Positions 3,604-11,001 of a DNA stretch of 38,604 nt are shown piece by piece. The stretch lies in NCBI GenBank assembly GCA_002687495.1, contig NZAJ01000083.1, forward strand, positions 1-38,604, written 5' to 3'. The stretch's first letter is position 1. Each line of letters starts with the position of its first letter. This stretch comes from Micavibrio sp. Its GTDB lineage: Bacteria; Pseudomonadota; Alphaproteobacteria; Micavibrionales; Micavibrionaceae. A model generated the notes under the pieces. It ran no database searches and was not told the origin of the DNA. It was given only the letters and a program-made list of their open reading frames with translations. The position numbers and the translations under genes were made by a program.

Positions 3604-4629
3604 CTAAATCGCTTTAATCCAGTCTTTACGCTTGAAGTTGTGCGTTGCTTCTACGCGGCGCACAGTCCCTGATTTTGAGCGCATAATGATAGAGCTCGTT
3701 TTAGCGCCGCCAGCATAACGACGCACACCGCGAAGCATTGTCCCATCTGTTACACCTGTTGCAGCGAACATCACGTTATCACCTTTTGCAAGATCGTCTG
3801 TTGTGTAGATGCGGTTCAGGTCTGTAATGCCCCATTTTTCAGCGCGCGCTTTTTCTGTGTCGTTACGGAAGATCAAACGACCAAGCATTGAGCCACCAAT
3901 ACACTGAAGCGCTGCAGCGCCAAGCACACCTTCTGGCGCACCGCCGGTACCAACATAAAGATCAATACCTGTATCAGGCTCAGCAGTTGCGATCACAGCT
4001 GATACGTCACCATCGCCGATCAGTGTAATACGCGCACCTGCCTCTCGAACACCCGTGATGATATCTTGGTGACGTGGACGATCTAGAATACATACGTTCA
4101 AATCATTGATTGAGCCGCCCTTTTCTTTTGCAAGTTTAGCAAGCACATCACCGATTGGCGCATCGAGATCTAGAATATTTGGATCAAGCCCCGGACCAAT
4201 CGCCATTTTCTGCATGTAAGTATCAGGCGCATTCAAAAAACCGCCTTTATCTGTCATTGCGACAACTGCCAAAGCATTAGGGCCGCCTGCTGCCGTAATG
4301 TCTGTCCCTTCAAGTGGGTCTAACGCGATATCAATTTCAGGACCGTTGCCACTACCGACTTCTTCACCAATGTAAAGCATTGGCGCTTCATCACGCTCGC
4401 CTTCACCAATAACGATGCGGCCTTTGATATGTAGAGAATTTAGTGCGTGACGCATCGCATCCACAGCCACTTGGTCCGCTGCCATTTTATCACCACGCCC
4501 AACAAGTTTAGACGCAGCAAGCGCTGCCGCCTCGGTAACGCGCACAACTTCAAGGGCAAGGTTACGATCCATCATATCTTTCATATCGTTTAGTGACATA
4601 TTTTCTTCTACTTTCTCTGGCTCAGCCAT
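3604..4629 (-). CDS. glpX: Class II fructose-1,6-bisphosphatase GlpX
   Basis: 341-residue metal-dependent phosphatase converting fructose 1,6-bisphosphate to fructose 6-phosphate in gluconeogenesis; related enzymes also hydrolyse sedoheptulose bisphosphate. Diagnostic segments: GRGDKMAADQVAVDAMR, GEGERDEAPMLYIGEEVG with its acidic metal ligands, the DPLEGTD motif, and GTGGAPEGVLGAAALQC. The length matches the family. It lies 52 nt downstream of hom on the same strand, consistent with cotranscription. The start at 4629 leaves an N-terminal extension (MAEPEKVEENMSLNDMKDMM). An internal Met at residue 11 (MSLNDM) is an alternative start. Confidence 0.96.
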   Translation of the reverse strand: MAEPEKVEENMSLNDMKDMMDRNLALEVVRVTEAAALAASKLVGRGDKMAADQVAVDAMRHALNSLHIKGRIVIGEGERDEAPMLYIGEEVGSGNGPEIDIALDPLEGTDITAAGGPNALAVVAMTDKGGFLNAPDTYMQKMAIGPGLDPNILDLDAPIGDVLAKLAKEKGGSINDLNVCILDRPRHQDIITGVREAGARITLIGDGDVSAVIATAEPDTGIDLYVGTGGAPEGVLGAAALQCIGGSMLGRLIFRNDTEKARAEKWGITDLNRIYTTDDLAKGDNVMFAATGVTDGTMLRGVRRYAGGAKTSSIIMRSKSGTVRRVEATHNFKRKDWIKAI

Positions 4630-4681
4630 GTGTGTTAATTCCTGCTATCAATAATTTCTCATTCATTTTTGCTTGCGGTGC

Positions 4682-5980
4682 CTACTCTAACGTCTCAACG
4701 CGCATGAGACAAGGCTCATTCACAACACTCTCAAGAGCTGCGAACATTTCACATGCTTTTACCATGTCGCCATGGCGCGCCTCATGCGTTGTCAGCACAA
4801 TAGAAACTTCTGCACCCGGGTCACGACCATGTTGCGACATGCTTTCGATCGAAATTTGTAAATCACGCAAAATCGTGGAAATCTCAGCCATAACCCCCGC
4901 TTGATCCAATACATTAATACGCAAATAATAATGGCTATGGGTGTCGTTTAGATTCATCCAGTCCGGATCTTTTAGCTGCTCTACTGGCACACCGAATGTT
5001 GGGATATGAATGCCCCATGCAATATCAATCACATCAGCCATAACAGCAGAGGCCGTTGGACCTTCGCCAGCGCCGCGACCGGTCACGAGGACTGTATCGA
5101 CTGAGTCGCCATCAATATAAACAGCATTATAAACATCTTCGATTACACCTACCGGATTCGTCACAGGCACTAAACACGGCTCAAGCAGCTGCATGATGCT
5201 GCCGTCTTTTGTACGCTCAGCTATACCCAGAAGCTTAATCCGATAGCCAAAATCTTGCGCGAATTTAATATCTGTTGGCGTGATTTTTCGAATACCTGTC
5301 ATTTGCAAATTTGCAAAATCAGGCTTTGTACCAAAAGCAATAGCACTTAGAAGGCAGAGCTTATGACCTGCATCAATCCCATCAACATCAAAACTAGGAT
5401 CAGCTTCAGCATAGCCCATTTCTTGCGCTTCTTTGAGGATCACATCAAAATCGCGACCAGTTTCGCGCATATTGGTTAGCATATAATTACATGTGCCATT
5501 CAAAATGCCGTAAACCGCATCAATACGGTTTGCCGCCACCCCTTCTCTCAAAGCTTTAATAGCTGGAATACCGCCAGCCACAGCAGCTTCGTAAGCAAGC
5601 GTTACGCCGTTCTTTTCTGCAATTTGTGCGAGTTCATAGCCATGATGTGCAAGTAGCGCCTTATTCGCAGTCACCACATGTTTTTTATTTTCCAATGCGC
5701 TTTTAACAAGCTCTAATGCGAGACCTTCACTACCACCAATAAGTTCCAACACAACATCAACATTGTCTTTTGAGGCAAGATCACGTGCATCAGCCACCCA
5801 CTCATAGCTCGAGAAATCCACATCACGCTTCTTAGAAGGATCACGCGCACTCACACATGATATCTCTATTGGACGCCCTGCTCTGGCCGTCATTAAATCT
5901 GCGTGATTTTGGATAATTTTCGCAACACCTACACCTACTGTTCCCAGACCTGCGATCCCTAACCTTAATGCTTGTGGCAT
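4682..5980 (-). CDS. hom: Homoserine dehydrogenase
   Basis: 432-residue NAD(P)-dependent enzyme reducing aspartate semialdehyde to homoserine, the branch point towards threonine and methionine. Features in order: Rossmann motif GLGTVGVGV near the N-terminus, VTANKALLAHHG, GGIPAIKALREG, the GILNGTCNYMLT catalytic-domain block, and a C-terminal ACT regulatory domain (YLRINVLDQAGVMAEIS) expected to sense threonine. The ATG at 5980 is chosen over one 21 nt upstream because AAGGAAT lies about 6-7 nt before it, and MPQALRLGIAGLG is the usual beginning. First gene of the hom-glpX-recJ series; metK, elsewhere in the window, uses the methionine end of this pathway. Confidence 0.95.
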   Translation of the reverse strand: MPQALRLGIAGLGTVGVGVAKIIQNHADLMTARAGRPIEISCVSARDPSKKRDVDFSSYEWVADARDLASKDNVDVVLELIGGSEGLALELVKSALENKKHVVTANKALLAHHGYELAQIAEKNGVTLAYEAAVAGGIPAIKALREGVAANRIDAVYGILNGTCNYMLTNMRETGRDFDVILKEAQEMGYAEADPSFDVDGIDAGHKLCLLSAIAFGTKPDFANLQMTGIRKITPTDIKFAQDFGYRIKLLGIAERTKDGSIMQLLEPCLVPVTNPVGVIEDVYNAVYIDGDSVDTVLVTGRGAGEGPTASAVMADVIDIAWGIHIPTFGVPVEQLKDPDWMNLNDTHSHYYLRINVLDQAGVMAEISTILRDLQISIESMSQHGRDPGAEVSIVLTTHEARHGDMVKACEMFAALESVVNEPCLMRVETLE

Positions 5981-8872: not shown

Positions 8873-9511
8873 CTATTTTACTGGGCAAAAACTTGGCTTT
8901 GACCATAAAGACTCGCATTTACTATAAAGCTTATCAATTTCACTCACCCAGCCCATACCATCACCAGAATCGTATCTCATGATCAACTTGCCATTTGCAT
9001 CTGTAAAGAATGCATCAAGCGTATGGTCGATTACTTTCCTTTGAGAGTTTAGTGCGTAAATATTCTCACCATATTTATTAGCTATAGAAAAAACATGGTC
9101 TTTTTCACCAATTAGCACTCGCACCCCATAGCGCTGCGCTTGGCTTATATTGTTCATATTGTCAAAAAGCTTGGCTTTAGCTAATGCGGATTTAGGTGGA
9201 ACTATCATGATATATTCAATATTCGGGAGATATTGGTTTCCTTTAGCCTTATCTTGCAATTCAAATTTAAGTGTTTCTTTTTCCAAGAATGCAGCATCGC
9301 AGCCTTTATAAATTTGCTGCGCAGTCATAAAAAGGATATAGCGATGTGTATTTGGCGCAGCTTTATAAGCCTTACCTGTTTGCACATCTATAAGCCCAGA
9401 AAGTGGGTCCGTTTCTGTAGCATGGATATCACCTGCAAGTGTAAGCGTAGCGCCAAGGGCACTTACAGCAAACATGCTGGATATTTTCTTTGCAAATTCG
9501 CGTCTATTCAT
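8873..9511 (-). CDS. Tat-exported SCO1/SenC-like protein lacking the CxxxC copper site
   Basis: 212 residues with a twin-arginine signal (NRREFAKK, then a hydrophobic stretch to about residue 27), so export in folded state is likely. The mature part resembles the thioredoxin-like SCO1/SenC family, which delivers copper to cytochrome oxidase or protects against it: HRYILFMTAQQ aligns with the strand leading to the active site, IEYIMIVPP with the next strand, and IDHTLDAFFTDANGKLIMRY with the conserved His and C-terminal hairpin. The usual CxxxC is missing. Only Cys71 lies nearby (YKGCDAAF), with Cys199 and Cys209 near the C-terminus. His163 corresponds to the SCO copper-ligand His. It starts 4 nt after the upstream gene ends, so the two are translationally linked. 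The family call is by eye and moderate. Confidence 0.6.
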   Translation of the reverse strand: MNRREFAKKISSMFAVSALGATLTLAGDIHATETDPLSGLIDVQTGKAYKAAPNTHRYILFMTAQQIYKGCDAAFLEKETLKFELQDKAKGNQYLPNIEYIMIVPPKSALAKAKLFDNMNNISQAQRYGVRVLIGEKDHVFSIANKYGENIYALNSQRKVIDHTLDAFFTDANGKLIMRYDSGDGMGWVSEIDKLYSKCESLWSKPSFCPVK

Positions 9512-9515
9512 TTCA

Positions 9516-9923
9516 TTACCTATTTAAAAGCTCTAGCGCTTCCGCCGATATCTGTGGCTTTGTTGTCGTTTGAAGCGTCGACATCGTACTATGATCATGT
9601 GAAGGGGCGCTTGATACTGCATCTGTTGGAGAATGCGCGGACATATCGCCGCCGCCCATATCATGAGCCGCCATTCCAAATTCGTAATCTAAGCTCAACG
9701 AACTGAGATCAAAATTGCTAACGAAAGTGCCTATCTCGCCTACACCTTTAAACATAGAGAGCGCACTATCTAAAACTGCAGCCGCCGCATTTGGTACATT
9801 TATCGGCATTCCAGCCCCTAAAAGAAGTGGCGTGACACCTATAGCCATACCCGCTAGCATCGCCCAATGAGCGTAGTGAAAATATTTAGTTAAGCCTGAG
9901 CCGTGTGCAGCTTCATCAGCCAT
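9516..9923 (-). CDS. Small membrane protein with His/Met-rich, probably metal-binding tail
   Basis: 135 residues, no known family. The N-terminus has HGSGLTKYFHYAHWAMLAGMAIG leading into one hydrophobic segment (about 20-40), then a small weakly hydrophobic region. From about 84 to 114 there is a segment rich in His, Met and Gly (M84, H87, M89, M94, H97, H109, H111, M114) like copper-binding Met/His motifs of periplasmic copper proteins. The ATG at 9923 is preferred over the one at 9929 because AAGGAG is 7 nt upstream of it but only 1 nt from the other. Its position between a DUF2946-like and a SCO1-like gene supports a copper or metal role; that is inference. Confidence 0.65.
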   Translation of the reverse strand: MADEAAHGSGLTKYFHYAHWAMLAGMAIGVTPLLLGAGMPINVPNAAAAVLDSALSMFKGVGEIGTFVSNFDLSSLSLDYEFGMAAHDMGGGDMSAHSPTDAVSSAPSHDHSTMSTLQTTTKPQISAEALELLNR

Positions 9924-10012
9924 AGCCATACTCCTTATAATGAGATTAAGGCGCTATGCTCAATTAATTATGAGCAACGACAATCTCTAATAACAAATTG
10001 AAATTATTGAAT

Positions 10013-10417
10013 TTAAGAGAGTATATATTGAGGAGGTGCGCGGGCGCTGAACGCTGTTTTACGGTATTGTATTAGTGCTGCGCCTTGATAGCTTATCAAA
10101 GCTTTAGCCTGCGGCAGCATTGAGGCTATATGAACTGGTTTTGCTAAGTCCAAATTCATATGGGCTTGCATAAAACAGAAATCACAGCCTTCAGATGAGT
10201 TTTGCTTTTGGTTTTGATCTTCAGCACTGCCACCAACATCAAGAGCTGCAAGATTAGGGTCTTCAACTTTGATTGTTCTAAGAGTGCCATCTGCACCACA
10301 AATTTCAATCCAATGTCCCTGCTCGCCTGAAATAAATTTACATGCAGGAGAAATGCCAGCTGTTATCACAGCTAACATCAATAAAATGTTCAAGTATTTT
10401 GCAAATGCTCTATGCAT
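10013..10417 (-). CDS. DUF2946-like envelope protein with cysteine motifs
   Basis: 134 residues with an N-terminal signal or anchor (MHRAFAKYLNILLMLAVITAG). The segment GHWIEICGADGTLRTIKV and the later CDFC motif (Cys78, Cys81, followed by MQAHMN with H86 and M87) are the typical pattern of the DUF2946 family, as is the C-terminal ARAPPQ. Four cysteines in all (26, 40, 78, 81). In other proteobacteria DUF2946 genes often sit beside copper-related genes, including TonB receptors; its molecular function is not established. It is the first gene of a three-gene minus-strand set with the His/Met-rich and SCO1-like genes. AGG lies 5 nt before the ATG. Confidence 0.75.
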   Translation of the reverse strand: MHRAFAKYLNILLMLAVITAGISPACKFISGEQGHWIEICGADGTLRTIKVEDPNLAALDVGGSAEDQNQKQNSSEGCDFCFMQAHMNLDLAKPVHIASMLPQAKALISYQGAALIQYRKTAFSARAPPQYILS

Positions 10418-10488: not shown

Positions 10489-11001
10489 CTATAAATATTC
10501 GCGGCTGAGCTTAACGTAGCGTTCGGCGGAAAAAGAGAGAAACTCCAACTCTTTCTCGGTGAGTTTACGCATGAATTTTGCAGGGCTACCCGCCCATAGC
10601 TCGCCTGTTGGTACTGTTTTTCCACTTGTCACGAGCGCTCCGGCTGCGACCATGGCGCGCGGCTCGATGCTCGCATCATCCATGACGCAGGCTTTCATCC
10701 CAATAAAGGCTTGATCACCAATTGTACAAGCATGAAGCAGCGCCATATGCCCGACCGTGACCTCATCACCTACATATGTACCTTGCGTGGTTGAGGAAAC
10801 GTGAATCACCGTGCCGTCTTGAATATTAGTGCGCTTGCCGATTTTAATATCATTCACATCACCGCGCAGCGTGCAGCCATACCAGATAGAGCTTTCCGCT
10901 CCGATTGTGACATCACCAATAATAGCCGCTGTCGGCGCTATAAATGCACTTTCATCATAATTAGGAAGCTTTGTACGGTATGGATAGATTAATTTATTCA
11001 T
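10489..11001 (-). CDS. Gamma-carbonic-anhydrase family protein (left-handed beta-helix)
   Basis: 170 residues made of hexapeptide repeats (IGDVTIGAESSIWYGCTLRGDVNDIKIGKRTNIQDG and so on), the left-handed beta-helix fold of the YrdA/CaiE/gamma-CA group. The three histidine metal ligands are visible: H67 (VIHVS), H85 and H90 (GHMALLH). The C-terminus has the usual WAGSPAKFMRKLTEKE. Family members bind zinc or iron, but many lack measured carbonic anhydrase activity, so the reaction is not assigned. The ATG at 11001 is chosen over an upstream one at 11088. The longer form would translate through the rpsI terminator and overlap rpsI, and MNKLIYPYRTKLP is the usual family start. It lies downstream of rpsI, beyond the terminator. 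Confidence 0.88.
   Translation of the reverse strand: MNKLIYPYRTKLPNYDESAFIAPTAAIIGDVTIGAESSIWYGCTLRGDVNDIKIGKRTNIQDGTVIHVSSTTQGTYVGDEVTVGHMALLHACTIGDQAFIGMKACVMDDASIEPRAMVAAGALVTSGKTVPTGELWAGSPAKFMRKLTEKELEFLSFSAERYVKLSREYL

Follow-up and report, generated by a model that had tools for sequence, protein, structure and literature searches.

A CruR-type upstream open reading frame ending in a complement of the next Shine-Dalgarno sequence, at the head of a putative copper operon in Micavibrio

What holds three small genes together at one locus, and does the first of them work as a protein or as a switch for the two behind it? The question is raised by a 38,604-nucleotide (nt) stretch of Micavibrio sp. 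(the window; contig NZAJ01000083.1 of assembly GCA_002687495.1), in which the open reading frame (ORF) list gives three ORFs in succession on the minus strand, at 10013-10417 (gene 1), 9516-9929 (gene 2) and 8873-9511 (gene 3). The original prediction read them as a relay of three envelope proteins for copper. We consider it likely that they form a post-transcriptionally controlled copper operon, in which gene 1 is a CruR-type arrest-peptide upstream ORF (uORF) governing genes 2 and 3. The proposal is based on the motifs of gene 1, the conserved gene order, the complementarity and conservation of a stem between genes 1 and 2, and the Sco fold of gene 3. The new element is that the codons between the RAPP motif and the stop of gene 1 are complementary to the Shine-Dalgarno sequence of gene 2.

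A CruR-type leader and the predicted stem at its end

Gene 1 lies above the Pfam cut-off for DUF2946 (PF11162; 30.8 against 23.7 bits, E = 5.4e-7) and has four Cys, both as originally predicted, and its N-terminal segment resembles an export signal by eye. Its motifs follow in the order CDFC, 44 residues, RAPP, five residues and stop. In Bordetella pertussis, CruR (BP2923), first described in 2022, is a DUF2946 uORF that senses copper through its CxxC and acts through a RAPP motif, with 45 residues between them, a distance that tolerates a change of 1-2 residues (PMC9426467); the spacing in gene 1 falls within this range. Gene 1 shares with CruR the DUF2946 domain, an export-signal-like segment, the CxxC and the RAPP close to the C-terminus, and it may likewise be the first gene of a copper operon. 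RAPP arrest has a solved structure (PMC10951233), and CruR was shown in vitro to arrest when its two Pro codons occupy the P and A sites (PMC12992588). Copper control is established for B. pertussis CruR (PMC9426467, PMC12992588), which is described as showing no complementation in trans, with a product undetected by proteomics (PMC9426467). Because the motifs match those of CruR, which has neither trans action nor proteomic detection, the reading that suits gene 1 best is that of a switch acting in cis, and it is most likely a regulator rather than a copper carrier.

The same design recurs in the order Micavibrionales, where DUF2946 is present in 23 genomes of a 57-genome sample. R[AGD]PP stands 2-5 residues ahead of the stop in all 24 DUF2946 ORFs found by hidden Markov model (HMM), namely that of the window and those of 23 other loci, one of which (in G002) has an in-frame stop farther upstream. 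A CxxC at a spacing of 43-46 residues is found in 25 of 31 uORFs of the order. By eye, the CxxC, the RxPP and their spacing are the most constrained parts of gene 1. The features on which the proposed switch depends are as follows.

10013-10417, minus strand: gene 1, CruR-type (DUF2946) uORF, 134 amino acids
10175-10186, minus strand: codons of the gene 1 CxxC (CDFC, residues 78-81), from the sequence; role known from CruR (PMC9426467)
10031-10042, minus strand: codons of the RAPP arrest motif (gene 1 residues 126-129), from the sequence
10014-10025, minus strand: 5' arm of the putative attenuator stem, made of the final codons and stop of gene 1, from the minimum free energy (MFE) fold and duplex calculation
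9927-9937, minus strand: 3' arm of that stem, holding the Shine-Dalgarno sequence AAGGAG (9931-9936) of gene 2, from the same two calculations
9941-9987, minus strand: intergenic inner hairpin (GAGAUU...AAUCUC), ends approximate, in the MFE and centroid folds of the window only
9516-9923, minus strand: gene 2, small membrane protein of 135 amino acids with an N-terminal His/Met helix and a His/Met-rich tail; membrane segment by eye

The most likely start of gene 2 is the ATG at 9923: AAGGAG ends 7 bases before this second ATG, the correct spacing, and only 1 base before the upstream one. The gap between genes 1 and 2 is accordingly 89 nt (83 nt with the upstream start) and that between genes 2 and 3 is 4 nt, in agreement with the predicted gaps of about 90 and 4 nt.

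In the MFE fold of the junction, UAUACUC-U-CUUA, running from past the RAPP codons into the stop, is paired with the stretch that holds the Shine-Dalgarno sequence of gene 2; the fold has a z of -2.75, and none of 200 shuffles was equally stable. Pairing was compared across 31 leaders of the order, the 24 above and seven reached through genes 2 and 3, all required to end in RxPP; the frame-interrupted uORF of G075 was excluded, and the gene 2 start of L038 was set by hand. Cognate ends and starts paired at a mean of -12.3 kcal/mol against -6.7 kcal/mol for mismatched ones, and none of 20,000 permutations was as strong. As a control, 56 ordinary codirectional gene pairs gave -7.2 kcal/mol, cognate and shuffled alike; leaders taken by the control definition gave -13.3 kcal/mol, with -10 or better in 28 of 31 against 18% of controls. 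Among six leaders found later, including the G012 leader (motif TGPP), which was used only in this test, L174 paired at -7.8 kcal/mol and the other five at -9.1 or better.

The pairing also has a fixed place. When a window was moved through the final 150 nt of gene 1 in the 31 loci, its complementarity to the Shine-Dalgarno region was -11.8 just after RxPP and about -4 to -6 elsewhere, and the strongest window fell at the post-RxPP codons or their edge in 24 of them. The idea, taken from the centroid fold, that the RAPP Pro codons are the pairing partner was rejected: in 17 of 31 loci the best window begins immediately past the motif and in 7 it overlaps the Pro codons, so that pairing lies mostly after them. 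When the codons were recoded synonymously at random, the mean fell to -7.3 kcal/mol and none of 400 sets reached the observed mean; recodings as strong as the native codons made up 5% or less in 22 of the 31 loci. The end of gene 1 is tied to the start of gene 2 by a locus-specific, position-specific stem that is kept by codon choice.

The pairing was then followed outside the order, where DUF2946 is found in 71 of 289 class genomes and 75 of 299 phylum genomes. The 60 best-scoring loci, a non-random set of which one (L120) comes from the family of the window, yielded 45 usable ones; the other 15 had no RxPP/CxxC pattern or no readable gene 2, and gene 2 starts were picked by rule, which adds noise. 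Cognate pairing in the 45 loci was -12.2 against -8.5 kcal/mol (0 of 20,000 permutations), with -11.1 against -8.5 in the class sample (21 loci) and -13.2 against -8.8 kcal/mol in the phylum sample (24 loci). The positional peak was shallower (-11.2 against about -8.2), with the best window there in 19 of 45; synonymous recoding gave -9.8 kcal/mol, with 0 of 400 sets as strong and 10 of 45 loci at the 5% level. The signal in these samples is significant, so the pairing is not private to the order, though it is weaker outside. Beside Rho, a conserved anti-Shine-Dalgarno sequence would represent a second mechanism, which can be seen throughout the order and, less strongly, in the two wider samples.

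The proposed switch and its alternatives

We propose that, when copper is scarce, the nascent chain of gene 1 would remain copper-free and the ribosome would arrest at RAPP. The arrested ribosome would cover the last codons of gene 1, which otherwise pair with the Shine-Dalgarno sequence of gene 2, and genes 2 and 3 would consequently be translated. When copper is present, the CxxC would bind it, arrest would be released, the ribosome would depart, the stem would reform and genes 2 and 3 would be off; Rho may afterwards end transcription, the outcome published for Bordetella. We assign copper sensing, and the sign of the response, by analogy, from membership in the CruR family. In the window and its relatives, gene 1 lies ahead of gene 2 and of gene 3, a Sco homologue, and may be the first gene of the operon.

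Arrest was modelled with the ribosome on RAPP and its leading edge at +22, counted in nt from where the motif begins. In this model the mean exposure of the Shine-Dalgarno region would rise from 0.34 to 0.52, going up by more than 0.1 in 20 and down in 2 of the 31 loci. In the wider loci it would rise from 0.33 to 0.45, up in 22 and down in 4 of 38; loci with intergenic regions above 200 nt were excluded from this wider set, of which 38 of the 45 were kept, both here and in the run that covered the six later leaders. For the window, leading edges of 18 and 25 nt were also tried, and an exposure of 0.34 in the free state became 0.59 at +22 and 0.50 at +25. A stem that hides the next Shine-Dalgarno sequence and overlaps the arrest footprint was thus found, strong across the set and moderate and footprint-dependent for the window.

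Several observations weigh against this proposal. For the window itself, the junction MFE fold accounts for 4% of the ensemble, the same Shine-Dalgarno sequence is hidden in the centroid by CUCCU from the Pro codons, the pairing is moderate at -10.2 kcal/mol, and 5% of synonymous recodings pair equally well. Modelled exposure drops to 0.19 at +18, with gains confined to +22 and +25, and is thus sensitive to the precise ribosome footprint. Two of the 31 loci have no good stem (L038, -1.3; L083, -5.3 kcal/mol), and that of L031, L041, L088 and L092 is weak (-6.6 to -7.8 kcal/mol). Six of the 31 uORFs have no CxxC at the CruR spacing, therefore not every leader need sense copper, and three leaders (L035, L044 and L046) sit ahead of ZnuA/ZnuB-like genes, among which a Pfam match confirmed the ZnuA of L035 alone. 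The genome of the window, 90.5% complete, gave no CtaG/Cox11 hit, and the single Cys in the CxxxC region of gene 3 leaves the standard Sco copper site incomplete. CutF, a related leader, answers copper with the opposite sign (PMC9973294). Finally, a stretch with more C than G at the end of gene 1 (C 31% and G 18%, then 29% and 10%) leaves Rho as a possible partner.

This last point leads to the alternative that CruR-type control proceeds through Rho-dependent termination alone, the Shine-Dalgarno pairing being a tuner or by-product, which we regard as unlikely. It would suit a DUF2946/CruR-type gene 1 whose end is similar to the C>G bubble in the cruR of Bordetella, and the published CruR model, in which the ribosome shields the transcript from Rho termination, holds that translational coupling does not fit the distance between the genes (PMC9426467). 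However, the intergenic regions of all 31 tested loci of the order (38-97 nt) are shorter than the 162 nt of Bordetella, and Rho alone would not need a locus-specific, position-specific stem kept by codon choice. Pairing of the ORF end with the next Shine-Dalgarno sequence is unreported for cruR in the main text of PMC9426467, where, as in that of PMC12992588, the word 'Shine' is absent; the cruR mRNA folding shown in Fig. S3 of PMC9426467 may bear on it.

The opposite sign was considered next. In Rhodobacter capsulatus, the cutF-cutO-cutG operon has a copper-sensing exported leader with a Pro-rich end and a stem over the Shine-Dalgarno sequence, and copper lengthens the arrest so that the operon is switched on (PMC9973294). 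The stem logic is equal here, and CruR and CutF have in common that arrest means ON. On this pattern copper would prolong arrest, genes 2 and 3 would be on and the unit would serve copper tolerance. We consider this improbable: CutF has a CxxxC, another Pro-rich end and other downstream genes, whereas the leader here has DUF2946 and the CxxC and RAPP of CruR at CruR spacing, and the genes behind it, here and in the scanned relatives, are those of assembly or uptake (Sco, TonB receptor, ZnuA) rather than oxidases or efflux.

The relay of three mature envelope proteins, gene 1 included, appears very improbable to us. The three genes do occur together in 11 of 142 genomes and have the Cys, His and Met content of copper proteins, and the DUF2946 assignment, the Sco fold with its conserved His and the copper theme of the original prediction are upheld. 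The inclusion of gene 1 in capture or delivery did not hold: its constraint sits, by eye, in the CxxC, the RxPP and their spacing, its 3' end is constrained as RNA, DUF2946 leaders also precede unrelated genes (barrel, TonB receptor, ZnuA/ZnuB-like), and both its likeness to CruR, undetected in proteomes and without trans action (PMC9426467), and the pairing in its mRNA fit a cis switch. A leader of the SecM type, reporting the state of Sec/YidC export instead of copper, is scarcely credible, since, although SecM-secA and the other RAPP/RGPP Sec monitors likewise open a stem over the next Shine-Dalgarno sequence by arrest near the C-terminus (PMC10987492), no sec gene was recognised here, SecA, SecDF or YidC is not the next gene in the loci viewed by eye, and a metal motif, the fixed-spacing CxxC, is present in 25 of 31 leaders.

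Genes 2 and 3

Gene 2, a putative small protein of the inner membrane whose His/Met tail would be periplasmic, and gene 3, a putative exported modified Sco, would together keep copper in the envelope or pass it on, probably to serve a cytochrome oxidase. Copper binding and this client are suggested by the protein families; the Bordetella CruR operon has been linked to heme-copper oxidases (PMC12914433, PMC13038864), which supports the proposed oxidase client. The downstream genes themselves differ: a TonB receptor and a PepSY_TM protein follow in cruR-crtA(bfrG)-crpH, in place of the small His/Met membrane protein and Sco variant seen here.

Gene 2 has the His/Met richness that had been predicted for the middle protein (7 His and 10 Met). 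Neither Pfam nor NCBIfam matched it at E<=10, and a search for relatives with the single window protein returned none; single-protein searches were insufficient for both genes 2 and 3, for which profiles were needed. Among the order's 142 searched genomes, a gene 2 profile of 12 sequences found homologues in 20 at E<=0.01 and in 18 at E<=1e-8, and in all 18 a leader with a CxxC and an RxPP-type end precedes gene 2. The exceptions are ones of detail: G030 has a barrel gene between leader and gene 2, the leader of G075 is frame-interrupted, and the motif in G012 is TGPP. By Pfam, 10 of these 18 leaders pass the DUF2946 cut-off, five stay below it, two (G030 and G073) have no match at E<=0.1 and one is the interrupted leader; for the 13 leaders compared with Pfam last the figures are six, five and two (again G030 and G073). 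Leaders below the cut-off or unmatched were named from their CxxC and RxPP (TGPP in G012). G100, G108, G073, G120, G121 and G012 were absent from profile building and provide an independent check on the link between leader and gene 2. The nearly invariant residues of the family include a His where the N-terminal hydrophobic segment begins and another His in the tail. Gene 2 thus appears, from its sequence, to represent a family of small His/Met-rich membrane proteins tied to the leader and without a Pfam model; an N-in topology with a periplasmic tail and copper binding are plausible for it.

Two variants of gene 2 surroundings were observed. At 165-827 of the reversed L176 locus (G021), a protein resembling gene 2 carries two tandem copies of the His/Met membrane segment (weak match, E 0.004). 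In L038 (G034), gene 2 is followed at 4536-4844 of the reversed locus by a 102-amino-acid exported protein with a CCGG motif, and Sco is missing there.

The features of gene 3 that bear on its assignment are listed here.

8873-9511, minus strand: gene 3, protein of 212 amino acids with a predicted Sco fold, from profile and predicted structure, and an RREF twin-arginine translocation (Tat)-like signal, by eye
9299-9301, minus strand: codon of Cys71, aligned with the second Cys of the Sco CxxxC
9023-9025, minus strand: codon of His163, aligned with the Sco metal-ligand His
8885-8917, minus strand: codons of the C-terminal Cys199 and Cys209, kept in the two closest homologues

At E<=10, window gene 3 matched nothing in Pfam, SCO1-SenC included, or in NCBIfam, and a sequence search of the PDB returned only weak matches (E 0.5 and 1.1) and nothing useful. 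A contig search for relatives with the window protein alone found none, and one with a two-sequence alignment found two; a further search with the single window protein added one genome. Two relatives came up under a name, Micavibrio sp. UBA6929 and UBA2638. Of the 11 Sco proteins encoded in such three-gene units, five were compared with Pfam: SCO1-SenC matched the homologues of G077 (7e-31), G075 (7.5e-20) and G011 (2.4e-14), and not that of G119 or window gene 3. The HMM check suggested with the original prediction therefore succeeded for DUF2946 and, for SCO1/SenC, failed with gene 3 itself. Profile-profile comparison by hhalign of the window gene 3 subfamily with canonical Scos gave a probability of 88.8 (E 2.5e-6). 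A structural model built from three sequences (mean predicted local distance difference test score (pLDDT) 59.6, predicted template modelling (TM) score 0.64, pLDDT <50 from residue 184) has human SCO1 as its best structural match (Z 11.8, root-mean-square deviation 4.1 A over 135 residues); SCO1 is also the top Foldseek match (E 2.3e-6), with a TM score of only 0.43-0.54, and a viral fold library gave only thioredoxin-fold matches, e.g. glutathione peroxidases. A single-sequence fold (pLDDT 39.5) was discarded. Profile, related proteins and predicted fold together indicate that gene 3 is a Sco homologue.

The alignment of gene 3 to the canonical Sco of its own genome places C71 at the second Cys of CxxxC and H163 at the metal-ligand His, and the first Cys is missing. 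The predicted SCO1 type thus stands for the fold and the conserved His and not for the CxxxC; with only C71 and H163 of the site left, gene 3 would be Sco-derived rather than a classical Sco. It shares with Sco1/SenC proteins (SCO1, BsSco, ScoI) the fold and these two residues, and differs in the lost first Cys, the RR-x-F Tat-like N-terminus and the extra C-terminal Cys. The second Cys and the His are kept in 11 of 11 unit Scos and the full CxxxC in two (G075 and G077). A Cys within the last ~20 residues is found in seven of the nine without CxxxC (the exceptions being G011 and G072) and in neither of the two with it, which suggests that a C-terminal Cys may have taken over from the lost CxxxC Cys. 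By eye, an RR-x-F Tat-like start is present in six of the 11 (window, G030, G077, G105, G107 and G119). A Sco branch with a rearranged Cys pattern may be tied to the switch in relatives of the predator Micavibrio.

A broader hypothesis can be formulated tentatively, and we hold it at somewhat less than even chances: that CruR-type (DUF2946) leaders are in general translational attenuators, whose post-RxPP codons form the anti-Shine-Dalgarno sequence for the following gene anew in each species, in which translation would be opened by the arrest itself, and for which Rho is secondary, and that in Micavibrionales they govern a copper-starvation module of a His/Met membrane protein and a Tat-exported Sco, its copper site rebuilt with a C-terminal Cys for the first Cys of CxxxC. 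The general attenuator hypothesis is directly testable through a few synonymous changes.

Distribution of the unit and other leader loci

The same three genes occur in the same order in 11 of the 142 searched genomes of the order, window included, an outcome of the conservation test set beforehand that makes the unit more than chance. Gene 3 follows gene 2 in 11 of the 18 genomes with a strong gene 2 match (G000, G010, G011, G030, G072, G074, G075, G077, G105, G107 and G119); these include the two described above with a barrel gene between genes 1 and 2 (G030) and an interrupted gene 1 (G075). The source assembly (1.97 Mb in 94 contigs) also encodes a canonical Sco with CxxxC (G000:C44), one COX1 and one PCuAC, so the unit adds to the ordinary Sco and does not replace it. 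The original statement that no described system has this gene order was too strong in its general sense: DUF2946-headed copper operons with ScoC are described (PMC9426467), although the passages seen on them do not contain this gene pair. The listings and passages seen from the open-licence literature, taken without figures and supplements, yielded no description of this gene pair or of pairing between a DUF2946 end and a Shine-Dalgarno sequence, and among the titles listed for Micavibrio and copper none was about these genes.

Around the unit, a same-strand gene ends at 10489, 71 nt upstream of gene 1; we take it to be gamma-carbonic-anhydrase-like, with what are presumably two ribosomal protein genes before it. 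The convergent gene downstream of the unit is, we assume, polyhydroxyalkanoate-synthase-like.

Elsewhere in the order, DUF2946 leaders precede an outer-membrane-barrel-like gene, a gene for a TonB receptor, or a porin-like one accompanied by ZnuA/ZnuB-like genes. CxxC/RxPP DUF2946-type leaders stand before a porin-like gene of ~350-455 amino acids in L035, L043, L044 and L046 (G031, G012, G006 and G009) and L120 (G060), and the N-terminal halves of these leaders are His-rich where read; L043 stops at the contig edge, and in L120 the gene after the leader was judged by its length alone. Leaders of the L035 type are perhaps zinc-sensing members of the family. The idea that all DUF2946 leaders are copper sensors was dropped, given the six of 31 without CxxC at the CruR spacing and the ZnuA/ZnuB-like genes behind L035, L044 and L046.

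In nine loci (L030, L032, L034, L036, L039, L042, L047, L049 and L051) the leader precedes an exported protein of ~365 amino acids with a Met/His-rich 'APIxxMGxHxHxxGxxM' motif, recognised in L032 by its C-terminus and matching Phenol_MetA_deg in L047; it looks like an outer-membrane copper or metal barrel. The leader of L039 (G002), ahead of such a barrel gene, is the one with the in-frame stop, yet its RGPP end and stem are kept. In L091 (G075:C47, ~3731-4161 of the locus), the N-terminal part of the leader is in one frame and the CxxC and RAPP are in another, either through a sequencing error or through loss of control, and the Sco of this unit keeps its CxxxC. In L033, L037 and L048 (G042, G036 and G041), from other families of the order, leaders without CxxC at the CruR spacing precede a different small Cys/His membrane-like protein of 111-151 amino acids.

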